Source: Halopseudomonas phragmitis
GTDB taxonomy: Bacteria > Pseudomonadota > Gammaproteobacteria > Pseudomonadales > Pseudomonadaceae
Length of the DNA stretch: 64,000 nt
Reading direction: 5' to 3'
Assembly (NCBI RefSeq): GCF_002056295.1
Contig: NZ_CP020100.1
Span: 1,635,501 to 1,699,500, forward strand
Each line of letters begins with the position of its first letter. Position 1 is the stretch's first letter. A program made the translations under genes and the position numbers. The notes below the pieces were generated by a model. It did no database searches. It saw only the letters and a program-made list of their open reading frames with translations, and was not told the origin of the DNA. Shown here piece by piece: positions 4,695-62,096 of the stretch.

Positions 4695-4720
4695 GACGCG
4701 GGCGAGGGCTCGCCCGCGTC
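4695..4720. terminator. Perfect 12-bp palindromic hairpin in the 4500-4871 gap
   Basis: The 372-bp gap between the GGDEF-EAL gene start and the ilvD stop holds two structures. This one is a 12-bp perfect stem (4695-4706 with 4709-4720) around a GG centre, very GC-rich but without a T-run on either strand. The MITE-like repeat follows immediately. On the minus strand it lies downstream of ilvD and about 195 bp upstream of the GGDEF-EAL start. It could stop or stabilise the ilvD transcript. The rest of the gap (4500-4694) should hold the promoter of the GGDEF-EAL gene; I see no confident -35/-10. Confidence 0.45.
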
Positions 4721-4730
4721 ATCGCTGGGG

Positions 4731-4874
4731 TAAGGGATCCCTGAAAACGTAGCCGAGGCAGGCAAGACAAGACAAAAACAGCCGAAAAAGCGCAGTTTAC
4801 GTGTTGTAAATGAGCATTTTGAGGCTGTTTTTAACGCAGTATTGCCAACGCAGGTAGTTTTCCGGGGTTCCTTA
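4731..4874 (+). repeat. MITE-like palindromic element, copy 1
   Basis: A 144-bp element, nearly identical to the reverse complement of 43549-43694. Its ends are inverted repeats (TAAGGGATCCCTGAAAA at the left, TTTTCCGGGGTTCCTTA at the right). The interior carries nested inverted segments such as AACAGCC with GGCTGTT and GTTTAC with GTAAAT, so the whole unit can fold into one long hairpin. There is no room for a transposase. The right-hand TTA is the stop codon of ilvD on the minus strand. It resembles a non-autonomous miniature element or a large REP/BIME. Direct flanking duplications are not obvious to me. Confidence 0.85.
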
Positions 4875-6710
4875 ATCTTCGAGCATGGCCTTATTGCGCA
4901 CCGCACCCTTGTCGGCACTGGTGGCCAGCAGGGCGTAGGCCTTGAGCGCAGTAGTCACCTTGCGCGGACGTTGTTCAGCCGGTTTCCAGCCCTTGGCGTC
5001 CTGTTCGGCACGGCGTACGGCCAGTTCCTCATCGCTGACCAGCAGGTTGATGCTGCGCTTCGGGATGTCGATCAGGATTTTGTCGCCGTCACGCACCAGG
5101 CCGATGGCGCCGCCCGCAGCCGCTTCCGGCGAGGCATGACCGATCGACAGGCCCGAGGTGCCGCCCGAGAAGCGCCCATCGGTCAGCAGGGCGCAGTCCT
5201 TGCCCAGGCCTTTGGATTTCAGGTAGCTGGTTGGGTAGAGCATTTCCTGCATGCCCGGGCCGCCCTTGGGGCCTTCGTAGCGGATAATGACAATATCGCC
5301 CGCTTTGACCTCGTCGGCCAGAATACCTTTGACCGCGCTGTCCTGACTTTCATAGATCTTGGCCCGGCCTTCGAATACATGGATGGATTCATCCACGCCG
5401 GCAGTTTTCACTACGCAGCCATCTTCGGCGATGTTGCCGTAGAGTACCGCCAGGCCACCTTCCTGCGAGTAGGCATGGGCAACACTGCGGATGCAGCCGT
5501 TTTCACGGTCATCGTCCAGACTGTCCCAGCGAGTGCTCTGGCTGAACGCTACCTGGGTCGGGATACCGGCCGGACCGGCCTTGAAGAAGGTGTGTACGGT
5601 CTCGTCGTCGGTCTGGGTGATATCCCACTGGGCGATAGCTTCCTCCATGCTCGGGCTATGCACGGTCGGTACATCGGTGTGTAGCAGCCCGCCGCGGGCC
5701 AGCTCACCGAGGATCGAGAAGATCCCGCCGGCGCGGTGCACGTCTTCCATGTGGTACTTCTGAATGTTCGGCGCCACCTTGCACAGTTGCGGCACCTTGC
5801 GCGACAGCCGGTCGATATCACGCAGGTCAAAGGCCAGTTCGGCCTCCTGGGCGGCGGCCAGCAGGTGCAGGATGGTGTTGGTCGAGCCACCCATGGCGAT
5901 ATCCAGGGTCATGGCGTTCTCGAAAGCCCTGAAGCTGGCGATATTGCGCGGCAAGACGTTCTCGTTGCCTTCGGCATAGTACTGACGGCACAGGTCGACG
6001 ATCAGTCGGCCAGCGCGCAGGAACAGTTGCTCGCGATCGCTATGGGTGGCCAGGGTCGAGCCGTTACCCGGCAGTGACAGGCCCAAAGCCTCGGTCAGGC
6101 AATTCATTGAGTTGGCGGTGAACATGCCCGAGCAACTGCCGCAGGTCGGGCAGGCGCTGCGCTCGTACTCGGCGACGGTTTCGTCTGAGCAACTGTCGTC
6201 GGCGGCGGCGACCATGGCATCGACCAGATCCAGGCCGTGGTTGGCCAGTTTGGTTTTGCCGGCTTCCATCGGTCCGCCGGAGACGAACACCACCGGAATG
6301 TTCAGGCGCAGCGCGGCCATCAGCATGCCGGGGGTGATCTTGTCGCAGTTGCTGATGCAGACGATGGCGTCGGCGCAGTGAGCGTTGACCATGTACTCGA
6401 CCGAGTCGGCGATGATCTCGCGCGAGGGCAGCGAATAGAGCATGCCGTCGTGACCCATGGCGATGCCGTCATCTACCGCGATGGTGTTGAATTCCTTGGC
6501 CACGCCGCCGGCTTTTTCGATTTCCCGCGCGACCAGTTGACCCAGATCCTTCAGGTGCACGTGGCCGGGCACGAACTGGGTAAAGGAGTTGGCGATGGCG
6601 ATGATCGGCTTCTTGAAGTCCTCGTCCTTCATCCCGGTGGCACGCCACAGCGCGCGGGCGCCGGCCATGTTGCGGCCGAAGGTGGAGGTTTTCGAGCGGT
6701 AATCAGGCAT
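4872..6710 (-). CDS. ilvD: Dihydroxy-acid dehydratase
   Basis: IlvD dehydrates 2,3-dihydroxy-acids to 2-oxo-acids in valine, isoleucine and leucine synthesis, using an Fe-S cluster. The 612-aa product is full length (E. coli 616). Motifs include [12 protein letters not shown] (Cys122), [19 protein letters not shown] (from Cys187) and the C-terminal [20 protein letters not shown]. The start ATG gives the usual [19 protein letters not shown]. It is monocistronic, and its stop codon is supplied by the end of the MITE-like repeat. The short C-terminal tail ML-E-D is normal for the family, so insertion did not truncate the enzyme visibly. Confidence 0.99.
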
Positions 6711-8427: not shown

Positions 8428-9258
8428 ATGTCCCTGGCTGCAAAGAAGCGCCGCGTCATACCCGGTTTCGGGCTGACCATGGGCTTTACCCTGTTGTACC
8501 TGAGCTTCATCTTTCTCATTCCAGTGGGTGGCCTGCTGCTCTACACCTCGCTGATGAGCTGGGATGACTTCTGGCGCGCTGTCAGCCATCCGCAGGTGGT
8601 GGCTTCCTACAAGCTGTCGTTTGGCGCCTCGTTGATCGGCGCCACCATCAATCTGGTGTTTGGCGCGCTGGTGGCCTGGGTGCTGGTGCGTTACAGCTTC
8701 CCCGGCAAGAAAATCGTTGATGCGCTGGTAGACCTGCCGTTTGCCCTGCCAACCGCAGTGGCCGGGATTGCGCTGGTGACCCTGTATGCCTCCAGCGGCT
8801 GGGTCGGCCAGTACCTGCAGGTGGCCGGGATCAAGGTGGCCTACACCCAGCTTGGTGTGGTGGTGGCGCTCACCTATATCGGCCTGCCCTTTGTGGTGCG
8901 CACCGTGCAACCGGTGCTGGAAGACCTGGAGGCTGAACGCGAAGAGGCCTCGGCCAGTCTGGGCGCCAGCCGCTTTACCACCATCCGCCGGGTGATTCTG
9001 CCGGCACTGTTGCCGGCGCTGCTGACCGGTTATGCCCTGGCTTTTGCCCGCGCGGTGGGTGAGTACGGCTCGGTGGTGTTCATTTCCGGCAACATGCCCT
9101 ACCGCACCGAGATCACACCGCTGCTGATCGTCGCCAAGGCCGAACAGTACGACTACAACGGCGCCGCTGCGATCGGTACGGTGATGTTGCTGGCGGCCTT
9201 TGCCCTGCTACTTCTGATCAATGGTCTGCAATGGTGGACCCAGCGTCGCGGCCTGTGA
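8428..9258 (+). CDS. cysT: Sulfate ABC transporter permease CysT
   Basis: One of the two inner-membrane channel subunits of the sulfate/thiosulfate importer. The 276-aa product has six hydrophobic helices and the EAA loop that contacts CysA (EEASASLGASRFTTIRRVILP). It begins 56 bp after sbp with GAGGTGATCT upstream of the ATG and ends 10 bp before cysW. Length and order match the standard sbp-cysT-cysW-cysA operon. Confidence 0.97.
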   Translation: MSLAAKKRRVIPGFGLTMGFTLLYLSFIFLIPVGGLLLYTSLMSWDDFWRAVSHPQVVASYKLSFGASLIGATINLVFGALVAWVLVRYSFPGKKIVDALVDLPFALPTAVAGIALVTLYASSGWVGQYLQVAGIKVAYTQLGVVVALTYIGLPFVVRTVQPVLEDLEAEREEASASLGASRFTTIRRVILPALLPALLTGYALAFARAVGEYGSVVFISGNMPYRTEITPLLIVAKAEQYDYNGAAAIGTVMLLAAFALLLLINGLQWWTQRRGL

Positions 9259-10165: not shown

Positions 10166-10265
10166 CGTCATTGCGAGGAGGCGTTTTATGCCGACGCGGC
10201 AACCCATGTCTGGCAGCAATGCGGTGCCTATGGATTGCCACGCCTCTACGAGGCTCGCAATGACG
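10166..10265 (+). repeat. 100-bp palindromic repeat, tandem copy 1
   Basis: The unit begins CGTCATTGCGAGGAGGCG and ends CTCGCAATGACG, so its ends are inverted repeats; the inner GGCAACCC and GGATTGCC are a second inverted pair. It resembles the widespread intergenic palindromes that start GTCATTGCGAG. It has no coding potential and lies between cysW and cysA. Confidence 0.9.
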
Positions 10266-10276
10266 CCCCCTACACA

Positions 10277-10375
10277 CGTCATTGCGAGGAGGCGTTTTTT
10301 GCCGACGCGGCAATCCATGCCTGGCAGCAATGCGGTGCCTAGGATTGCCACGCCTCTACGAGGCTCGCAATGACG
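10277..10375 (+). repeat. 100-bp palindromic repeat, tandem copy 2
   Basis: A direct repeat of the preceding unit after an 11-bp spacer, about 95% identical by eye (99 bp; one base shorter near the centre, a T for an A in the GCGTTTT stretch). It ends 31 bp before the cysA ATG. In the cys mRNA each copy can form a long hairpin, which should affect processing or the supply of ATPase relative to permease. Confidence 0.9.
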
Positions 10376-43551: not shown

Positions 43552-43694
43552 GGAACCCCTGAAAAACTACCTGCGTTGGCAATACTGCGTTAAAAACAGC
43601 CTCAAAATGCTCATTTACACCACGTAAACTGCGCTTTTTCGGCTGTTTTTTCCTTGTCTTGCCTGCCTCGCCTACGCTTTTCAGGGGTTCCTTA
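43549..43694 (-). repeat. MITE-like palindromic element, copy 2
   Basis: 146 bp, the reverse complement of copy 1 with only scattered differences (by eye about 90% identity or better). Ends are TAAGGAACCCCTGAAAA and TTTTCAGGGGTTCCTTA, perfect inverted repeats of 17 bp. The leading TAA ends the small gene on the plus strand, and the trailing TTA is the stop of the SIMPL gene on the minus strand, so the element exactly fills the space between two convergent genes and would serve both as a terminator-like hairpin. Confidence 0.88.
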
Positions 43695-49822: not shown

Positions 49823-50623
49823 TTAGCCTGAGGGCATTGGCGTGGCCGGCCAGCCGAATAATTCACAACTGTTATGCAGGCAGGCGTTGGCGAACTCTTC
49901 TGCTGATTCGCCGCGCAGTTCGGCCAACTGTCGGGCGATTTCGGGCAGCCACTGCGGGCTGTTGCGTTGATGGGCCTGAAAGCTGGGAGCCATGTCCGGG
50001 GCATCGGTCTCCAGTACCAGCGCCTCGCGCGGTAATTCGGTAACGACCCGGCGCAGCCGCTGGGCCTGGGGCCAGGTAGCGGCGCCGCCCAGGCCGAGCT
50101 TGAAGCCAAGCTTGATATATTCACGCGCTTCCTCGCGGCTGCCGGCAAAGGCGTGGATGATGCCAGCACGCTTGAGTCGCCAGCGCTTGAGAGTAGCGAT
50201 GGTCGCGGCATGGGCCCGGCGCACATGCAGCAGTACCGGTAACTCGAACTCGGCGGCCAGTTGCAGTTGGGCTTCGAACAGCTCTTGCTGGCGCTCGCGG
50301 TCCAGCTCGCTGATGAAGTAGTCGAGCCCGATTTCACCGACGGCGCAACACTTGGGGTGCCCGCTCAGGCGCTCCAGCCAGGTACGCAGCTCCTTCAGAT
50401 GCTCGGGGCGGTGCTGCTCCAGATAGATCGGATGCAGGCCGAAGGCGGCATATAGCTGCGGGTGCGCTTGCACCAGCGTCCACAAGCGCTCCCAGTTGTC
50501 GCGATAGACCCCCATCACCAGCAAGCGCCGCACCCCCAGGCGCCGGCTATCGGCCAGCACCTGCTCGCGATCCGGATCGAAGTCGGGGAAGTCCAGATGA
50601 GTGTGAGTGTCGATGTAGTTCAT
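49823..50623 (-). CDS. TatD-family metal-dependent DNase
   Basis: A 266-aa TIM-barrel hydrolase of the TatD family. The metal-binding IDTHTHLDF at 3-11, GEIGLDYF with the bridging Glu, HVRRAH, HAFAGSREE and the C-terminal ETDAPDMAP are in order. The start at 50623 (MNYIDTHTHLDF) is fixed by homology; the frame to 50740 adds unrelated residues. TatD proteins act as 3'-5' exonucleases or D-Tyr-tRNA-like deacylases; this one's exact paralogue group is not certain. Confidence 0.92.
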   Translation of the reverse strand: MNYIDTHTHLDFPDFDPDREQVLADSRRLGVRRLLVMGVYRDNWERLWTLVQAHPQLYAAFGLHPIYLEQHRPEHLKELRTWLERLSGHPKCCAVGEIGLDYFISELDRERQQELFEAQLQLAAEFELPVLLHVRRAHAATIATLKRWRLKRAGIIHAFAGSREEAREYIKLGFKLGLGGAATWPQAQRLRRVVTELPREALVLETDAPDMAPSFQAHQRNSPQWLPEIARQLAELRGESAEEFANACLHNSCELFGWPATPMPSG

Positions 50624-50822: not shown

Positions 50823-50838
50823 TGGCACGGGCTTTGCT
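50823..50838 (+). promoter_or_regulatory. Sigma54 (-24/-12) promoter of the porin gene
   Basis: TGGCACGGGCTTTGCT matches the sigma54 consensus TGGCAC-N5-TTGC exactly, with GG (50824-50825) and GC (50836-50837) ten bases apart. The RNA would start near 50849, about 40 nt before the attenuator hairpin. An NtrC-like but wrongly spaced dyad (TGCACC...GGTGCC) lies near 50710. The 360-bp gap 50624-50983 therefore holds a sigma54 promoter plus a regulatory leader. Confidence 0.85.
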
Positions 50839-50886
50839 GCGGCAGCAGCGGCCAGCGGCGATGCTTCTGGCCAAACCAATATTTCT

Positions 50887-50945
50887 GGGCAAAGGCGTCC
50901 ACACAACTGCTCCTTCGGGAAGCAATTGGGTGGACGCTTTTTTTT
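50887..50945 (+). promoter_or_regulatory. Attenuator-type terminator in the porin leader
   Basis: GGGCAAAGGCGTCCAC opens an outer stem (AGGCGTCCAC against GTGGACGCTT at 50930-50939). The inner arm TGCTCC-TTCG-GG-A-AGCA adds a UUCG-capped hairpin, and T8 follows (50938-50945). It ends 38 nt before the porin ATG, so as drawn it would stop transcription before the gene. The opening 16-mer is identical in the nrt leader at 55390-55405. I infer a signal-controlled antiterminator, most likely NasT-type. Confidence 0.8.
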
Positions 50946-50983: not shown

Positions 50984-52204
50984 ATGAGCATCTATTTTCA
51001 AACACCACGCAAAACCCTCTTGAGCCTGGCCGTGCTGCTGGCCGGTGCCAGTTCGGCAGCTCACGCTGACAGTCCGTCGCTGTGGGAGGCGCTGACCGAG
51101 GGCAAGGCCGGGCTGGATCTGCGCTATCGCTATGAGCGGGTCGATCAGGACAATTTTGATCGTAACGCCCATGCCTCGACTTTGCGTACCCGGCTCAACT
51201 ACGCCACCGGCACCTGGCAGGGGCTGGGAGCCTTTGTCGAGTTCGATAATGTCAGTGTGCTGGGTGAGCAGCGCTACAACGATGCGAGCCTGCGTCCGAG
51301 CGCCAAGACCCAGTACCCGGTGGTTGCTGACCCCAAGGGCACCGAGGTTAATCAGGCCTTTCTCAGCTATGCCGGGCTGAGCGATACGCTGTTCAAGTAC
51401 GGTCGCCAGCGGATTATCTATGACAATGCCCGGTTCATTGGCAACGTTGGCTGGCGCCAGAACGAGCAGACCTTCGACGCCTTTACCGTGGTCAACCGTT
51501 CGCTGTCCGACACCACGCTGTCCTACGCCTATCTCGACAAGGTGCACCGGATCTTCGGCAAGGACTCGCCGCGTGGTGAGATCGACATGAAGTCCCACCT
51601 GCTCAATGCTTCCTACAGCGGGTTTGGGCTGGGCACCCTGACCGCCTACGGTTACTTCCTGGAAGATCAGGATACGCCAGCCAGTTCCAGCGCTACCAAG
51701 GGCCTGCGTTTCACCGGTGGCTACCAGCTCGCCGAGAGCAGCAAGCTGCTCTATACCCTGGAGTGGGCGCGTCAGGACGACTATCAGGACAGTCAGGATA
51801 TCAATGCCCGCTACAAGTTTGCCGAGCTGGGGTTGCAGTATGCCGGGGTCACTGGACGGGCCGGTTATGAGGTCCTGGGCGTCAAGGACAGTGCCTTCAG
51901 CACCCCGCTGGCCACTGCCCACGCCTTCAATGGCTGGGCGGACGTGTTCCTGGTCACACCGGCCAACGGCCTGCGCGACCGCCATGTGAAACTGGCCGGT
52001 TCAGTCTACGGCGTGGGGCTGATGGCGGCCTATCATGACTTCAAGTCCGATCGCGGCAGCATCGACTACGGCAGCGAGGTCAACCTGCAGGCGAGCAAGG
52101 CCATCGGCAAGGTCAATCTGACCGCCAAGTATGCGCGCTATTCGGCGGATGACTTCTTTGTCGATACCGAGAAGTTCTGGTTGATGGGGCAGGTGGCGTT
52201 CTAG
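50984..52204 (+). CDS. Alginate-export-family outer-membrane porin
   Basis: A 406-aa outer-membrane beta-barrel of the alginate-export (AlgE-like) porin family; members outside alginate clusters often accompany nitrate or other anion uptake. The start at 50984 precedes a signal peptide (cut expected after SSAAHA), and GGGGGAG is upstream. Family blocks FVEFDNVSVLGEQRYND, YPVVADPKGTEVNQAFLSY, GRQRIIYDNARFIGNVGWRQ, and a C-terminal Phe (GQVAF) for Bam recognition are visible. Control by the same promoter/leader design as the nrtA-like operon suggests it admits nitrate or a related nitrogen compound. Confidence 0.9.
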   Translation: MSIYFQTPRKTLLSLAVLLAGASSAAHADSPSLWEALTEGKAGLDLRYRYERVDQDNFDRNAHASTLRTRLNYATGTWQGLGAFVEFDNVSVLGEQRYNDASLRPSAKTQYPVVADPKGTEVNQAFLSYAGLSDTLFKYGRQRIIYDNARFIGNVGWRQNEQTFDAFTVVNRSLSDTTLSYAYLDKVHRIFGKDSPRGEIDMKSHLLNASYSGFGLGTLTAYGYFLEDQDTPASSSATKGLRFTGGYQLAESSKLLYTLEWARQDDYQDSQDINARYKFAELGLQYAGVTGRAGYEVLGVKDSAFSTPLATAHAFNGWADVFLVTPANGLRDRHVKLAGSVYGVGLMAAYHDFKSDRGSIDYGSEVNLQASKAIGKVNLTAKYARYSADDFFVDTEKFWLMGQVAF

Positions 52205-52234: not shown

Positions 52235-52347
52235 GGCTCAGTTGACGCTCCCCCTGTTTTGGACACGCCGTGAACCCGTCCTTGGGGGCTCGTAGATGCC
52301 ATCCCTGGCATCTAACGGTCCAAAACAGGGGGAGCGTCAATTGAGCC
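52235..52347. repeat. 30-bp inverted repeat between porin and prfC
   Basis: 52235-52264 and 52318-52347 are reverse complements with a single mismatch (29 of 30). The 53-bp interior has its own small hairpin (AGATGCCA with TGGCATCT). It lies between two convergent genes and cannot code. A smaller stem (CGCTGATC/GATCAGCG, 52211-52232) precedes it. It may be a bidirectional terminator or a mobile palindrome of the MITE/REP class. Confidence 0.9.
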
Positions 52348-54108: not shown

Positions 54109-55386
<1,278 letters not shown>

Positions 55387-55389
55387 TCA

Positions 55390-55449
55390 GGGCAAAGGCG
55401 TCCACCGACACGACCGTGAACAGGGTTGTGAACGTGGACGCCTTTTTTT
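55390..55449 (+). promoter_or_regulatory. Attenuator-type terminator in the nrt leader
   Basis: GGGCAAAGGCGTCCAC (55390-55405) begins an outer stem AAAGGCGTCCAC against GTGGACGCCTTT (55434-55445). Inside, CACGACC pairs with GGTTGTG around GTGAACAG. T7 follows (55443-55449). It ends 68 nt before the ATG of the binding-protein gene. The architecture and opening 16-mer match the porin leader although the inner loops differ. Confidence 0.82.
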
Positions 55450-55517: not shown

Positions 55518-56912
55518 ATGTCACATGCAGGTAATCGGGCACACCCGGGGTTGGCGACCATTGGTCGGCGACTGGCGACGGCGTTGCTGGGGGTCGGACT
55601 GTTGAGCAGCGCACTGGCCCAGGCTGCCGGGCCGCTGGAGAAAGAAGATCTGAAGTTCGGCTTTATCAAGCTGACCGATATGGCGCCGCTGGCGATTGCC
55701 TACGAGCGCGGATATTTCGAGGATGAAGGGCTGTTCGTAACCCTCGAGGCTCAGGCCAACTGGAAGGTGTTGCTCGACCGAGTGATCGATGGCGAACTGG
55801 ACGGTGCGCACATGTTGGCCGGCCAGCCGATTGGCGCAACCATTGGCTTTGGTACCGAGGCCCATGTGGTTACCGCCTTTTCCATGGATCTCAACGGTAA
55901 TGCGATCACTGTTTCCAACGAAGTCTGGGAGGCGATGAAACCGCATATTCCGCACGAGAACGGCAAGCCGGTACATCCGATCAAGGCTGACTACCTCAAG
56001 CCGGTAGTCGAGGGTTTCCGCGATCGCGGGCAGCGCTTCCAGATGGGCATGGTGTTCCCGGTCTCGACCCACAACTACGAGCTGCGTTATTGGCTGGCTG
56101 CTGGCGGTATTCATCCCGGCTATTACGCCCCGCACAAAGGTGATACTTCCGGCCAGCTGGATGCCGAGGTGCTGCTCTCGGTTACCCCGCCGCCGCAGAT
56201 GCCGGCCACGCTTCAGGCCGGCACTATTCATGGCTACTGCGTTGGTGAGCCGTGGAACCAGCAAGCGGTGTTCATGGGCATCGGGGTGCCGGTGATCACC
56301 AACTACGAGATCTGGCGCAACAACCCGGAGAAGGTGTTCGGGGTCAGCAACAGCTGGGCCGAACAGCATCCCAACACCCACATTGCCGTGGTCAAGGCGC
56401 TGATCCGGGCCGCCCACTGGTTGGATGCCGACAATAACGCCAACCGCGCCGAGGCGGTGAAGATCCTGGCCCAGCCGCACTATGTCGGCGCGGACGAGGC
56501 GGTAATCGCCAACTCGATGACCGGCACCTTCGAATACGAGAAGGGTGATAAGCGCGAGGTGCCGGACTTCAACGTGTTCTTCCGTCACCACGCGACCTAT
56601 CCCTATTACTCCGATGCCATCTGGTTCCTGACCCAGATGCGCCGTTGGGGCCAGATCCCCGAGCACAAGCCTGACAGCTGGTATCTGGACATGGCCAAGA
56701 AAGTCTATCGCCCGGAAGTCTACCGCCAGGCCGCCGAGGCGTTGATCGCCGAAGGCAAGCTGCCGGCCTCGGTGTTCCCTGACTTCGCCACGGAAGACGG
56801 CATGCGGGCGCCGCAGAGCGAGTTTATCGACGGTGTGGTGTTCGATGGCCGAACCCCCAACGACTACCTCAACAGCCTGACGATCGGACTCAAGGGCGAG
56901 CAGAAACTCTGA
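55518..56912 (+). CDS. nrtA: NrtA/CmpA-family nitrate-type ABC substrate-binding protein
   Basis: A 464-aa periplasmic binding protein of the NrtA/CmpA family (nitrate, nitrite or bicarbonate). Signal peptide to SSALAQAA; mature start [18 protein letters not shown]. Family hallmarks are [30 protein letters not shown] and [25 protein letters not shown] precedes the ATG at 55518. The sigma54/attenuator leader supports a nitrogen source such as nitrate over bicarbonate. First gene of the nrtA-nrtB-nrtD operon; a 20-bp hairpin follows it. Confidence 0.9.
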
Positions 56913-56952: not shown

Positions 56953-57978
56953 ATGAACATGACCAATCGACTGATTCACTACCTTGAAATGACCGGCTTC
57001 ACCTGGATGGTGCCGGTGGTGCGCCTGGTGCGCGGCGAGAACCTGCGCGAACAGCTCGGTGAGCTGTTCAACCGGGTCGGTCTGCCGCTGCTGGCGATCG
57101 CAATCTTCCTGCTGCTGTGGTCGGCGCTGGCGGCCCAGGTGAAGACCAGCCTGGGCGACTTGCCTGGCCCCGTTCAGGTCTGGGAGCAGGCCGGCAACCT
57201 GTATGCCGAGCATCAGGCCGAGCGCGGGCGTGAGCGGGCCTTTCTCGAGCGTCAGGTCGAACGCAACGCCCGGCTACTGGAAGCCGACCCCAACGCTGAA
57301 GTGCGCTGGCGCAGCTACACCGGCAAGCCGACCTTTGTCGATCAGATTTTCACCAGTCTGAAGACCGTCTTCGCCGGTTTCGTCCTGGCCAGCCTGATAG
57401 CAATCCCGATTGGCGTAGCCTGTGGCCTGAGTCCGCGTCTATATGGGGCGATCAGCCCGCTGGTGCAGGTGCTTAAACCAGTGTCGCCACTGGCCTGGCT
57501 GCCGATTGTGACCATGGTGGTCAGCGCCGTGTACGTCTCCGACGACCCCTGGTTCCAACGCTCGTTCGTCACCTCGGCGATCACCGTGATGCTCTGCTCA
57601 CTATGGCCGACGCTGATTAACACGGCAGTGGCGGTGGCTTCGATCGATCGCGACTGGATCAATGTCGGTCGGGTGATCCGCCTGCCGCTGGCCACCCGGA
57701 TTTTCAAGATCGCCATTCCCGCGGCTCTGCCGATGATGTTCACCGGTCTGCGGATCTCGCTGGGGATCGGCTGGATGGTCCTGATCGCCGCCGAAATGCT
57801 GGCGCAGAACCCGGGCCTGGGCAAGTTCATCTGGGACGAGTTCCAGAACGGCAGCTCCAACTCGCTGGGACGGATCATGGTGGCGGTGCTGGCGATCGGC
57901 ATCATCGGCTTTCTGCTCGACTGGCTGATGGTCACTCTGCAGAAATGCCTGTCCCACGACAAAACCGCGGCCCAATGA
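56953..57978 (+). CDS. nrtB: NrtB-type nitrate ABC transporter permease
   Basis: A 341-aa inner-membrane channel subunit with about six hydrophobic helices, the ntrB-type permease family. The EAA-like loop is in DWINVGRVIRLPLATRIFKIAIPAALP. A periplasmic insert with an amphipathic coiled stretch (about 75-115) is longer than in CmpB. Two ATGs compete: at 56953, GAGG is only 3 nt away, while ATG 56959 has 9-nt spacing; 56959 (339 aa) may be the true start. 40 bp separate it from nrtA. Confidence 0.88.
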   Translation: MNMTNRLIHYLEMTGFTWMVPVVRLVRGENLREQLGELFNRVGLPLLAIAIFLLLWSALAAQVKTSLGDLPGPVQVWEQAGNLYAEHQAERGRERAFLERQVERNARLLEADPNAEVRWRSYTGKPTFVDQIFTSLKTVFAGFVLASLIAIPIGVACGLSPRLYGAISPLVQVLKPVSPLAWLPIVTMVVSAVYVSDDPWFQRSFVTSAITVMLCSLWPTLINTAVAVASIDRDWINVGRVIRLPLATRIFKIAIPAALPMMFTGLRISLGIGWMVLIAAEMLAQNPGLGKFIWDEFQNGSSNSLGRIMVAVLAIGIIGFLLDWLMVTLQKCLSHDKTAAQ

Positions 57979-58006: not shown

Positions 58007-58873
58007 ATGTCAGTCCTTCACGCTATCAAGGATCTTGTCAGCGAGCCGCAGCAGGCGGCCCAGACCGAGCCAGCGACAATCCGCTCCTTCCTTGACCTGA
58101 GCGGAGTATCCATCGACTTCCCGGTACGCGGCGGCAGCTTCCGCGCGCTGGACCGGGTCAACCTGAAAATCGCCAAGGGCGAGTACGTATCGATCATCGG
58201 CCACTCCGGCTGCGGCAAATCGACCGTACTGAACATCGTCGCCGGCCTGCTGCAGGCTACCGAGGGTGGCGCCATTCTGGAAGGGCGGGAAGTGACCCAG
58301 CCGGGGCCGGACCGGGCGGTGGTGTTCCAGAACCACGCTTTGTTGCCCTGGCTGACCTGCTACCAGAATGTCGAGCTGGCGGTGAAGGCGATCTTCAAGG
58401 GACGCAAGAGCCGCAAGGAAATGCGCGAATGGATCGAGCACAACCTTAAGCTGGTGCACATGGACCATGCGATGCACAAATACCCGGCGGAAATCTCCGG
58501 GGGCATGAAGCAGCGGGTCGGGATTGCCCGGGCGTTGGCGATGGAGCCTACAGTGCTGCTGATGGATGAGCCGTTCGGCGCGCTCGACGCGCTGACCCGC
58601 GCCCACCTGCAGGACTCGGTGATGGCGATCCAGGCCGAGCTGAACAACACCGTGCTGATGGTGACCCACGATGTCGACGAGGCCGTGCTGTTGTCGGACA
58701 AGATCGTGATGATGACCAATGGCCCGGCGGCCAAGGTCGGTGAGGTCTTGAGTATCGACCTGGAGCGCCCGCGTGATCGTCTGGCGCTGGCCAGCGATGC
58801 CCGCTACAACCAGTACCGCTCCGAAGTGCTGCGCTTTCTCTACGAGCGTCAGCGCCGGCCAGATGAACATTGA
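58007..58873 (+). CDS. nrtD: NrtD-type nitrate ABC transporter ATPase
   Basis: A 288-aa ATPase of the ntrCD family: Walker A GHSGCGKSTVLNIV, Q-loop VFQNHALLPWLT, signature EISGGMKQRVGIARAL, Walker [16 protein letters not shown], and H-loop MVTHDVDEA. It has no NrtC-like C-terminal binding domain, so it is the D-type half; with a homodimer it would complete NrtA-NrtB. Preceded by AGGAGAGCACAAC. Confidence 0.93.
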   Translation: MSVLHAIKDLVSEPQQAAQTEPATIRSFLDLSGVSIDFPVRGGSFRALDRVNLKIAKGEYVSIIGHSGCGKSTVLNIVAGLLQATEGGAILEGREVTQPGPDRAVVFQNHALLPWLTCYQNVELAVKAIFKGRKSRKEMREWIEHNLKLVHMDHAMHKYPAEISGGMKQRVGIARALAMEPTVLLMDEPFGALDALTRAHLQDSVMAIQAELNNTVLMVTHDVDEAVLLSDKIVMMTNGPAAKVGEVLSIDLERPRDRLALASDARYNQYRSEVLRFLYERQRRPDEH

Positions 58874-58926: not shown

Positions 58927-60279
58927 TTAGTCGCGGAACTGGGCCTTGTCCAGACCGTGGCGCTTCATCTTCTCGTACAGGGTCTTGCGGGCGATACCCA
59001 GGCGCAGCATGGTGGCCTTGAGGCTGCCCTGGCAGGCCTGCAGGGTGGTGATCAGCAGTGAGCGCTCGTAGCCGTCCATCAGCTCGGCCAGACTCTGGCC
59101 GGCCGGCAGTTCATCGCTGAAGCTGGCGTCGCCCGGCTCCAGCGCCAGTGGTCCCATCAGTACGTAGCGCTCGGCCAGATTGCGCAGCTCGCGGACGTTG
59201 CCGGGCCAGTCGTGCTGCATCAGCCGGGCAGCCTGGGCCGTATCCAGTGGCACGCTGTCGCGGTCGTAGCGGGCAGCGGCGATCAGGGCGAAGTGGTGAA
59301 ACAGCAGTGGGATATCTTCCTTGCGTGCGCGCAGCGGCGGAATGTCGATTTGTACCACGTTGAGCCGGTAGTAAAGGTCGGCCCGAAATTCGCCGGCATC
59401 ACTGAGTTGCTTGAGATCGCTCTTGGTGGCGGCGATTACCCGCACATCGACCGTTTGCAACTGGTTGCTGCCCAGGCGTTCGACCTTGCGTTCCTCCAAC
59501 ACCCGCAACAGCTTGACCTGCAACGCCAGCGGCATGCTTTCCAGCTCGTCGAGAAACAGGGTGCCCTGGTGGGCGTGTTCGAACTTGCCGATGCGTTTGC
59601 CTTCGGCGCCGGTAAAGGCGCCAGCCTCATGGCCGAACAGTTCGCTCTCGATCAGGTTCTCCGGAATTGCACCGCAGTTGATGGCGACGAAGTTGTGTTC
59701 GCGACGTGGACTGTTCTCGTGGATATAGCGAGCCAGGGCATCCTTGCCGGAGCCGGTTTCGCCGCGCAGGAGAATGTCGGCGTTGGTATCGAGCAGCGGA
59801 TCGATCATTGCCAGCACCCGGCGCATGGCGGGTGAGTCGCCGCGCAGGCGCGGGCCAGGCATTGCCAGGCTGCGCAGTTGCTGCTTGAGCTGGCGGTTCT
59901 CAAGCGCCAGTTGGCGCTTTTCCAGTGCGCGCTTGAGGATTTCCAGCAGGCCGTCCTGGTGGAACGGCTTCTCGATAAAGTCGTAAGCGCCTTCACGCAT
60001 GGCCGCCACCGCTGTGCTGATGTCGCCCTGGCCGGTGAGGATGATCAGCGGAATGCTGTCGTCGATCCGCTTCAGCGCCTGCAGCACTGCCAGACCATCC
60101 ATGCCGGGCATGTGGTAGTCACACAGCACTACACCGGGAAAGTTGGCATCCAGGCGCGTCAGCGCCGCAGCGCCGTCGGCAAAGCACTCGACCGGCAGTT
60201 CCTCCAGGGCCAGGGTTTGGGCCATGACCTGGCGAATGGCGGCATCGTCGTCGATGAAAATGACCCGGGTTTCATTCAT
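58927..60279 (-). CDS. dctD: DctD-type sigma54 response regulator
   Basis: A 450-aa NtrC-family activator. Receiver with phospho-Asp54 (VVLCDYHMPGMDG), AAA+ domain with GETGSGKD, intact ELFGHEAGAFTGA, Walker B GTLFLDELESMP, and a Fis-type HTH at the C-terminus (LKATMLRLGIARKTLYEKMK). DctD activates sigma54 promoters of C4-dicarboxylate uptake genes. It is translated right after the kinase gene (ATGA overlap). The intact GAFTGA contrasts with the protein at 13288-14112. Confidence 0.94.
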   Translation of the reverse strand: MNETRVIFIDDDAAIRQVMAQTLALEELPVECFADGAAALTRLDANFPGVVLCDYHMPGMDGLAVLQALKRIDDSIPLIILTGQGDISTAVAAMREGAYDFIEKPFHQDGLLEILKRALEKRQLALENRQLKQQLRSLAMPGPRLRGDSPAMRRVLAMIDPLLDTNADILLRGETGSGKDALARYIHENSPRREHNFVAINCGAIPENLIESELFGHEAGAFTGAEGKRIGKFEHAHQGTLFLDELESMPLALQVKLLRVLEERKVERLGSNQLQTVDVRVIAATKSDLKQLSDAGEFRADLYYRLNVVQIDIPPLRARKEDIPLLFHHFALIAAARYDRDSVPLDTAQAARLMQHDWPGNVRELRNLAERYVLMGPLALEPGDASFSDELPAGQSLAELMDGYERSLLITTLQACQGSLKATMLRLGIARKTLYEKMKRHGLDKAQFRD

Positions 60280-62096
60280 GCTGGGTTCTCGTTGGCCTGG
60301 CGTCGGCGCAGGGTCATGATGAATTCGGCACCACCTTCGGCGCGGTTCTGGCCGACCAGACTACCACCGAGCGCCTCGGAGATCTGCCGCGAGATTGACA
60401 GTCCCAACCCCAGCCCCTGTTTCAGCGGCTTGGTGGTGAAGAACGGCTCGAACACCTGCTCGCTATTGGCCGGCAGGCCCGGGCCGTTGTCGCGTACCCG
60501 GCATTCGACCTGGTCATCATACAGGTGCAGATCGATGTCGATGCGTGGTTGGGCACTGCCATCCACTGCCTGCACGGCGTTGCTCAGCAGATTGACCATG
60601 ACCTGTTCGATGCGGATCAGGTCACCGTGTACCATCACCGGTTGTTCTGGGCGCTGCCAGTGAATCTCGGGCGTCGCACCGTCATTGCGGCTGAACAGCA
60701 ACTTCAGTGCAGCGTCGATTGGTAGGCGCAGGTCGACCTGACTCGGCAGCCCTTCTGACTTGCGGGCGAACACCTTGAACTGGCGAATCAGCTCGGCCAT
60801 TTTCTCGCACAGGGCAAGGATTTCGCCCAGGTTGGCTTCGACCATCGCCGTATCGCCACGTTGCAGGAACCGCCGGCTGTTGCTGGCGTAGCCTTGCAGG
60901 GCGGTCAGCGGCTGATTGAGTTCGTGATTGAGGCCCGCCGACATCTGCCCCAATACCGCCAGCTTGGCGGCCTGGATCAGCTCCTGCTGGGTGGCCTTGA
61001 GCTCGTGTTCAGCACGCTGGCGTTCGGCAATTTCAGCGCGCAACTGCTGGTTGCTGGTCTTGAGATCAGCGGTTCGCTCGGCAACCCGTTGCTCCAGCTG
61101 CACGCCACGTTCGGCCAGTTCGGCTTCACGCCGGTAGCGCTCGCGCAGGTACAGGCCGATGCTCAGCACGCCGGTCAGCAGCACCAGCGCACCTAGCACA
61201 AAGCGCAGCCGCACCCAGCGTACCGGTGTTGTCTCAACCAGTACATTCAGGCTCCAGCCCTGCTCGGCCACCTCATGACGTACCCGCAGATACTCGCGCC
61301 AGCTGCCGTTTTCGTCGATTTGCAGTCGCTCACTCAGCGCTGTGCTGCCCAGCGGCTGACCAAGCCGGCGCAGTGGCAGCACTGGCAGTGGTTGGTCAGC
61401 GTAACGGCGCTCACTGGCCAGTCGCTCGCGTTGGGCCTTGGTCAGTGGCTCGAAGGCCTGATACAGCCATTCGGGGCGGCTGGCCAGAAAGCTGATGCCG
61501 TAGTTGTCGAGTACCAGCATCTCTGTGGCCGGGCTGGCCGAAGGGCGGCGCCACTGGGCTTCCAGTTCATCGACCTGGACTTTCATGGCGATCACCCCGA
61601 TCGCCTGCTGGTCCGCCAGGATCGGATAGGCGAAATACAACCCGCGCACGGCCGAGGTGGTGCCCAAGGCAAAATAGAACTGGCCCTGGTGCTGGGCCAG
61701 GGCGTCGATGAAATAGGGCCGGTAACTGAGATCCTGGGCAATGAAACTGTCTTGCTGCTGGTAATTGCTGGCGGCGATCACCAGACCTTGCGGGTCGAGC
61801 AGATACACATCGGAACTGGCGACGATGGTCGCCATCAGTTGCATGATCAGGTTGGCCTCGAGGATCAGCGGCGCATCGTCTGGACGACGCAGGGTTTCAG
61901 CCAGCAGTGGATGCTGAGCCGCCAGAGCGACGATCGGTTCATAGCGTTTGATCTCGTTGCCGAGCAACTGACCGTAGCGGAAGGCATCCTCGCGGCTTTC
62001 CCGTTCCAGTTGCCGGTAGCCGAACAGCCCGCCGAGCTGCCAGGCCAGCAGGCTGCTTAGCAGGATGCTCAGGGGTAGCCAGATGCGGTAGTTCAT
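60276..62096 (-). CDS. dctB: DctB-type sensor histidine kinase
   Basis: A 606-aa inner-membrane kinase: N-terminal anchor, a periplasmic double-PAS/Cache sensor (about 35-285; SSDVYLLDPQGLVIAASNY, SYRPYFIDALAQHQGQFYF), a second helix (LGALVLLTGVLSIGLYL), a coiled segment, and H-box AGLNHELNQPLTALQGY, then NLLSNAVQA, DNGPGLP and GLGLGLSIS in the ATPase domain. It senses C4-dicarboxylates in relatives. The pair sits next to a TRAP transporter, the usual target of DctBD. Confidence 0.94.
   Translation of the reverse strand: MNYRIWLPLSILLSSLLAWQLGGLFGYRQLERESREDAFRYGQLLGNEIKRYEPIVALAAQHPLLAETLRRPDDAPLILEANLIMQLMATIVASSDVYLLDPQGLVIAASNYQQQDSFIAQDLSYRPYFIDALAQHQGQFYFALGTTSAVRGLYFAYPILADQQAIGVIAMKVQVDELEAQWRRPSASPATEMLVLDNYGISFLASRPEWLYQAFEPLTKAQRERLASERRYADQPLPVLPLRRLGQPLGSTALSERLQIDENGSWREYLRVRHEVAEQGWSLNVLVETTPVRWVRLRFVLGALVLLTGVLSIGLYLRERYRREAELAERGVQLEQRVAERTADLKTSNQQLRAEIAERQRAEHELKATQQELIQAAKLAVLGQMSAGLNHELNQPLTALQGYASNSRRFLQRGDTAMVEANLGEILALCEKMAELIRQFKVFARKSEGLPSQVDLRLPIDAALKLLFSRNDGATPEIHWQRPEQPVMVHGDLIRIEQVMVNLLSNAVQAVDGSAQPRIDIDLHLYDDQVECRVRDNGPGLPANSEQVFEPFFTTKPLKQGLGLGLSISRQISEALGGSLVGQNRAEGGAEFIMTLRRRQANENPA

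Follow-up and report, generated by a model that had tools for sequence, protein, structure and literature searches.

The stretch of Halopseudomonas phragmitis DNA analysed here (64,000 nucleotides, referred to as the window) carries on its plus strand a porin gene (50984..52204) and an nrtABC gene cluster. The porin belongs to the Alginate_exp family (PF13372; Pfam E 8e-9) and is proposed to be a nitrate porin, nitrate being a predicted substrate. The cluster encodes an NrtA-type substrate-binding protein of the NMT1_2 family (55518..56912, plus strand; PF13379, Pfam E 3e-96), an NrtB-type permease with a BPD_transp_1 domain (56953..57978, plus strand; best NCBIfam match ntrB with 153.5 bits, below the cut-off of 209) and an NrtC/D-type nitrate ABC transporter ATPase (58007..58873, plus strand; TIGR01184 with 338.9 bits, above the cut-off of 291.8). 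The two units are 3.3 kb apart and each has a leader of its own; the genes between them lie on the minus strand and encode, by our own reading of the translations, release factor 3 and adenosine deaminase. The leaders would serve two halves of one function, i.e. an outer-membrane channel and an inner-membrane transporter. A spacer flanked by an inverted repeat of some 20 bases, resembling an intergenic repeat element, is found behind the porin gene (52242-52340), and genes for a sigma-54-type response regulator and a histidine kinase (58927-62096, minus strand) lie beside nrtC, convergent with it.

A hexaloop hairpin overlapping the terminator

The original prediction held that one 16-mer opens a terminator-like hairpin at both sites, with coding starts 38-68 nt downstream, and on both points it was correct. 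The 16-mer GGGCAAAGGCGTCCAC occurs exactly at 50887-50902 and 55390-55405. The intrinsic terminator of the porin leader (50894..50945, plus strand) folds with -25.2 kcal/mol and ends in a run of 8 T (50938-50945), 38 nt before the ATG at 50984, while that of the nrt leader (55397..55449, plus strand) folds with -29.9 kcal/mol and ends in 7 T (55443-55449), 68 nt before the ATG at 55518. Open frames crossing the leaders, from TTG 50798 in frame with the porin gene and from GTG 55416 in frame with nrtA, were taken as chance extensions. An interpretation of the hairpins as simple terminators of upstream genes was rejected, since at either site the nearest upstream gene points the other way, on the minus strand (with starts that we place near 50623 and 55131; longest frames from 50740 and 55326), and only transcripts initiated in the gaps should therefore meet either terminator.

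The shared 16-mer alone is unremarkable. A window search for GGGCAAAGGCGTCCAC allowing up to three mismatches gave three matches, the third at 9190 with 3 mismatches, against 1.04 expected; three were also reached by 6 of 100 shuffles, and about 20 16-mer segments are repeated in the window (among them 4754-4820 with 43604-43670, and 10166-10360). The repeat by itself was therefore rejected as significant, and what is beyond chance is the arrangement of the two sites. Across the whole genome, a single additional copy, GGGCAACGGCGTCCAC, differs at one position, and nine places differ at two.

Judged from its sequence, the 16-mer is a putative ANTAR-type hexaloop hairpin, GGGC-AAAGGC-GTCC, with a C:G closing pair and with A and G at loop positions 1 and 4. 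These are the features of the NasR recognition element determined by SELEX, a hexaloop with a terminal C:G pair, A1 and G4 (PMC7496416; papers given by PMC number are cited here and below from excerpts), and loop positions 1 and 4 are likewise reported as part of the recognition element of EutV (PMC3369931). The hairpin, termed P2, could be identified in the porin leader (TGGGC-AAAGGC-GTCCA, 50886..50901, plus strand) as a putative antiterminator, and in the nrt leader (55390..55403, plus strand). In both, A1, G4 and the closing C:G pair are combined with an overlap with the terminator: the 3' half of P2, GGCGTCC(AC), doubles as the terminator 5' arm, so that the two hairpins are mutually exclusive. 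The earlier statement that there is no clear ANTAR hexaloop hairpin in front was mistaken, as the 16-mer itself fits such a hexaloop; likewise, the claimed conservation of outer stem and 5' flank stands as conservation, but the "flank" is the competing hairpin.

Canonical leaders of this kind carry two hexaloops, the first being P1. No AnnGnn hexaloop with at least three pairs could be identified between promoter and P2 in either window leader, which bears out the suggestion that a variant was possible. Where P1 would be expected, at the predicted start of the transcript, the porin leader has a 5' hairpin (GGCCAG/CTGGCC, 50850..50872, plus strand) lacking such a hexaloop. The window leaders thus appear to be P2-only variants of nitrate ANTAR attenuators, a mechanism that we infer.

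Sigma-54 type promoter sequences are found in both leaders, TGGCACGGGCTTTGCT at 50823..50838 and TGGTACAGCCATTGCT at 55315..55330 (both plus strand), predicting transcript starts near 50849 and 55341. The strict motif TGGYRY-N6-TGC was searched upstream of P2 and found at 70 of 79 leader sites of the genus versus 0-2 of 79 in each of ten shuffles; besides both window leaders, these include the nasR-linked, narK and nirB leaders found here. No such motif was identified at the nasST leader and chemoreceptor site of this genome, at six of 11 nasD leaders and at the nasS leader of one relative. In the wider nrtA set described below, 19 of 30 script-picked leaders have the motif (0-1 in shuffles). 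Such motifs are consistent with control of the leaders by nitrogen limitation, presumably through NtrC.

Related leaders in this genome and in other bacteria

A covariance model (R1) containing five leaders of this genome matched seven places in the genome at E<0.01, plus one antisense match: the two window leaders and those of nirB, narK, nasST, a chemotaxis receptor gene and a second nrtA linked to nasR. The search for the 16-mer plus hairpin across the genome that had been recommended thus revealed further leaders of this kind before nasST, narK, nirB and the nasR-linked nrtA, so that the predicted sharing of a leader by two operons holds for both sites, while the kind extends beyond them. 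The last-named leader lies directly behind nasR (locus L011, 8338-9627; NIT and ANTAR domains by Pfam) and has a similar P2; the permease and ATPase genes of its nrtA were read from translations. The same locus contains a cobalamin riboswitch (4700-4943, minus strand, 88.7 bits). The chemoreceptor site (L157; G000:C1:3242750-3242802, minus strand, in the stretch G000:C1:3240150-3243102) shows the P2/terminator arrangement with 36.0 bits before the gene of an MCP-domain protein (E 3.8e-34), which is followed by that of a second protein, this one carrying a nitrate-sensing NIT domain (E 2.9e-10); nitrate chemotaxis may possibly be under the same kind of switch.

Comparison with known leader families, which had also been recommended, identified kin of the window leaders in this genome, but the window leaders themselves score below the Rfam gathering scores. 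P11 (RF00625), which by its position we take to be NalA, calls the nirB leader with 96.9 bits, and narK RNA (RF03032) calls the nasST and narK leaders with 53.2 and 50.5 bits. In a 381-base search, P11 (gathering score 70) matched the nrt leader with 23.9 bits at 55303-55442 (E 0.0023), the porin leader being absent from its matches; narK RNA (gathering score 43.2) reached 16.7 bits at 50824-50901 and 12.4 bits at 55316-55404. The called narK RNA regions (L012, 1458-1524 and 3429-3496) and P11 region (L013, 671-808) coincide with ANTAR-type two-hexaloop leaders of nasST, narK and nirB, which suggests that the Rfam families narK RNA and sRNA P11 are ANTAR leaders. The nirB leader has a third hairpin between P1 and P2, TCCTG-ACCGAT-CAGGA, with A1 and G4 but a G:C closing pair.

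As P11 is catalogued in Rfam as a small RNA and matches the nirB leader and, weakly, the nrt leader, the short terminated RNAs could be stand-alone trans-acting small RNAs like P11 or NfiR of P. stutzeri. NfiR is a 54-nt regulatory RNA upstream of nasA; its authors regard P11 as homologous, describe effects on nitrogenase genes and state that deletion of NfiR did not significantly alter the flanking genes (PMC6606865). A trans role could coexist with a leader role, and NfiR may itself represent what is left when transcription of such a leader terminates. Near AAAGGCG, the 11-nt pairing sequence given for NfiR (PMC6606865) was found in none of 398 genomes; before a T-run it gave sequence matches in three of 56. 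In the window, same-strand genes start 38 and 68 nt after the terminators, and NalA is described as a leader (PMC12830290, PMC3973561), which makes the small-RNA interpretation most improbable.

To look beyond the genus, the best 80 loci encoding relatives of the window NrtA were collected by protein and not by leader; one of these, L014, is from the same species as the source. Our scan identified a P2/terminator overlap within 420 bases upstream of nrtA in 47 of the 80 loci, versus 0-1 of 80 in each of ten dinucleotide shuffles, and found no such leader within that distance in the other 33. A homologue of NasT (37 loci) or NasR (three loci) is encoded in 40 of them.

For covariation, 33 leaders (five of this genome and 28 foreign) were aligned from 52 candidate sequences, after dropping L014, two doubtful sequences (L046 and L083) and 16 whose loops differ, in most cases GGC-AACGAA-GCC as in Alteromonas. 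The full set of 52 candidates had been selected for loop, closing pair and terminator, so that pairing is partly given by selection and the invariance of A1, G4 and the closing pair is uninformative. With figures that lean upward because the rows were chosen for both hairpins and the loop, the P2 helix shows changes on both sides in three of four pairs and 93.9% of cells paired, and the terminator helix in seven of nine pairs and 90.4%; slid controls reached at most 53.8% and 61.7%. The terminator helix exceeds all 500 column shuffles on all five measures, and the P2 helix on three of five, the exceptions being double-change pairs (as high in 107 of 500) and further pair types (500 of 500). 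The absence of co-varying stems among homologous leaders would have spoken against the original prediction; paired variation is present in these selected leaders.

A leave-out covariance model, built from the 28 foreign leaders alone and hence free of sequences from this genome, had the two sites as its top two matches both in the window (E 8.7e-9 and 1.1e-8) and genome-wide (E 5.5e-7 and 6.9e-7). The nirB leader and the chemoreceptor site followed at E 3e-5 to 4e-5, the narK and nasR-linked leaders were at E 0.02 to 0.03, values shared by two sites outside these leader classes, and the nasST leader was absent from the matches of this model in the genome.

Within the genus, an ANTAR match was found in 22 of 37 genomes searched. 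All 22 have an R1 leader match at E<1e-4, versus one of the 15 others (G024, 75% complete). Weaker R1 matches (E 3.7e-4 to 0.0092) occur in five more of these 15 genomes; the three that were read (L195, L205 and L211) look like ordinary sequence or terminators. From the R1 match list of the genus 80 stretches were fetched, 79 of relatives and one of this genome, leaving aside nine antisense rows, all remaining rows of this genome and nine more whose E ranged from 0.004 to 0.0093. The gene behind the leader or our own reading allowed 76 of the 80 to be classed, the rest being ordinary sequence or unclear; the nasD class, whose protein has 852 aa and resembles nitrite reductase, owes its name to the translation only.

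Fourteen genomes of the genus have a porin leader, and in ten of these a single leader is followed by the porin gene and directly by nrtA. nrtA was not seen in the fetched stretch of two others (L144, at a contig end, and L168), which leaves this genome and another that is almost identical to it. The joined arrangement could have arisen in the genus by fusion of two units, or the separate one in this lineage by splitting of one operon. Leaders precede both porin and nrtA genes in the distant loci L015 and L068, possibly also in L046, so that the ten joined relatives do not settle the direction.

NasR, NasT and the first hairpin

The genome encodes two nitrate ANTAR proteins, NasR (NIT E 3.3e-53, plus ANTAR) and NasT (behind NasS), as expected for ANTAR attenuators, and a leader of the same kind lies next to nasR, as expected for a NasR regulon. 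Porin leaders occur in seven genomes with both proteins, in six with NasR only and in the incomplete G024 without an ANTAR match, and in none of the four with NasT only. In relatives, NasR and NasT were assigned by open-frame length (298-469 versus 193-244 aa), a Pfam check of identity covering the two proteins of this genome; the NasR frame of G026, a genome 81% complete, has 298 aa. Since porin leaders are found in genomes with NasR and in none of those with NasT only, NasR appears the likelier reader of the window leaders, with the non-independence of related genomes as a caveat. The NasT/NasS-type nitrate antitermination proposed originally thus stands as a class of mechanism, supported by the overlap of hexaloop and terminator, the co-occurrence with ANTAR proteins and the P11 and narK RNA leaders of the genome. 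As regards NasT/NasS as the regulator, it was not upheld, given the nasR gene with a leader behind it and the distribution of porin leaders.

We propose, with fair confidence, that each leader is a nitrate-responsive transcription attenuator, read most likely by NasR. Under nitrogen limitation, NtrC and sigma-54 would start transcription about 40-50 nt before the 16-mer, as the promoter sequences suggest. Without nitrate, GGCGTCCAC would pair with the downstream GTGGACGC(C) to form the terminator, and transcription would stop before the porin gene or nrtABC. With nitrate, an ANTAR protein, most probably NasR with its NIT sensor and ANTAR domain, would bind the AAAGGC hexaloop of the emerging P2; the common GGCGTCC segment would then be kept in P2, the terminator could not form and the polymerase would read through. 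This mechanism is supported by the agreement of P2 with the NasR SELEX features, the leaders upstream of nrtA in other genera, the paired variation, the leave-out ranking and the ANTAR co-occurrence, and NasR is preferred because a P2 leader directly follows nasR and because of the genomes in which porin leaders are found. Against it stand the 33 nrtA loci in which the scan found no such leader, the predominance of NasT over NasR among the ANTAR genes beside nrtA in other genera and the lack of a second canonical hexaloop. Changes to either hairpin lowered induction by EutV (PMC3369931), and NasR bound a single hairpin about twelve-fold more weakly than two, at about 12 versus 1 uM (PMC7496416). 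A single hexaloop is described as the minimal motif for ANTAR binding, while prevention of termination is said to require contact with each hexaloop (PMC8934654).

The missing P1 and the reported need of EutV for both hairpins (PMC3369931) would also fit attenuators under another factor, or fixed partial terminators descended from ANTAR leaders after loss of P1. We regard this as very unlikely: the overlap of P2 hexaloop and terminator is kept before the 47 nrtA genes found by protein and in 14 of 14 porin leaders of the genus (found with a loop-scoring model, and hence partly by selection), and the leaders co-occur with ANTAR proteins.

Alternatively, the reader of this attenuator could be NasT, which NasS would hold back until nitrate is bound, or NasR and NasT could both read it. 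The genome encodes NasS and NasT, the ANTAR genes beside nrtA in other genera are mostly of the NasT type (37 versus 3), the window P2 resembles that of the nirB, narK and nasST leaders, and binding of NasT to NalA is described in a review (PMC12830290). The six genomes with a porin leader and NasR but no NasT match, together with the lack of porin leaders in the four NasT-only genomes, make a NasT-read switch unlikely, and P1 points in the same direction. In this genome, canonical P1 hairpins are found in the narK (GGTAACC-AACGGC-GGTTGCC), nirB (CCTGTC-AACGGC-GACAGG) and nasST (GGGCATC-AATGGC-GATGCCC) leaders, whereas the two window leaders and the nasR-linked leader have none. Among genomes with both regulators, canonical P1 is present in narK 7/7, nirB 10/10, nasST 2/3 and nasD 2/2 leaders, versus porin 0/7, nasR-linked 0/7, nrt 0/2 and, for the chemoreceptor site, 1/2.

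Genomes with a single regulator extend this picture. Those with NasT only have canonical P1 in narK 2/2, nirB 4/4 and nasD 3/3 leaders, and those with NasR only in narK 2/5, nirB 1/8, nasD 1/6, nasR-linked 0/3 and porin 5/6; the three canonical narK and nirB P1 hairpins of the latter all have loops other than AAnGGC. Taken together, narK and nirB leaders have canonical P1 in 23/23 cases in NasT-bearing and 3/13 in NasR-only genomes (Fisher p 1.1e-6, related genomes not being independent). In a tree of NirB N-terminal sequences, accounting for the presence of NasT takes four changes (3-4 in the bootstrap; at least two are required by well-supported branches). The 5' helix of nasR-linked leaders seems, by eye, to show compensating variation; MAFFT misaligned its 3' arm.

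On the basis of the P1 distribution and the four changes in the tree, we tentatively suggest, as a possibility and not as the expected outcome, that P1 would act as an address label in bacteria with two regulators: leaders of NasT would keep the canonical P1, while those of NasR, including both window leaders, would share P2 with P1 lost or replaced, so that there would be no cross-talk and NasR would antiterminate from a single hexaloop. Several observations speak against it. Leaders were found by scan in six of 11 NasR loci outside the genus (R1 found one more, L254, outside this count), and five of the six NasR-adjacent leaders have canonical P1, so that NasR is not known to do without it. 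These leaders and the porin leaders of NasR-only genomes (5/6) led us to reject a strict rule that canonical P1 means NasT, and the related genomes are not independent. At nrtA loci outside the genus, canonical P1 is found in 16/23 NasT-linked and 0/2 NasR-linked leaders and in 8/22 with no regulator in the locus, an underpowered comparison.

Relation to known systems

One of the closest known systems is the P11/NalA leader of nirBD (RF00625), NalA being described as driven by sigma-54 and NtrC and bound by NasT (PMC12830290, PMC3973561). It shares with the window leaders a sigma-54 motif, a short leader, a P2 with an AAAGGC loop, a terminator overlapping P2 and nitrogen-oxide genes behind. 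In contrast, the nirB leader found here carries a canonical P1 together with an additional hairpin; the window leaders, which precede porin and nrtABC genes, lack a canonical P1 and do not reach the RF00625 gathering score. With narK RNA (RF03032) they share a position upstream of nitrate genes; the nasST and narK leaders of this genome match that family and have two hexaloops, whereas the window leaders have the second only and fall short of 43.2 bits. The Klebsiella oxytoca nasF leader, read by NasR, likewise has a P2 hexaloop with closing C:G, A1 and G4, and a NasR-type regulator is encoded here too, but nasF has a two-hairpin motif (PMC7496416) and the window leaders one hexaloop, the porin leader having in addition a 5' hairpin with a different loop. 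In the eut leaders of Enterococcus, read by EutV, the second hairpin also overlaps the terminator; there, both hexaloops matter, and regulator and genes are different. A narrow search of titles and abstract starts of open-licence PMC papers found no ANTAR-controlled nitrate porin and no report of P1 separating NasR from NasT.

The arrangement brings both an outer-membrane porin and the nitrate ABC transporter under the control of an apparent nitrate antitermination switch, and indicates that leaders of this kind exist that the Rfam models do not call at their gathering scores. One-hexaloop leaders beside two-hexaloop sisters in the same cell form a natural set, with which it becomes testable whether one hexaloop is enough for ANTAR antitermination and how two ANTAR regulators that respond to the same signal stay apart.
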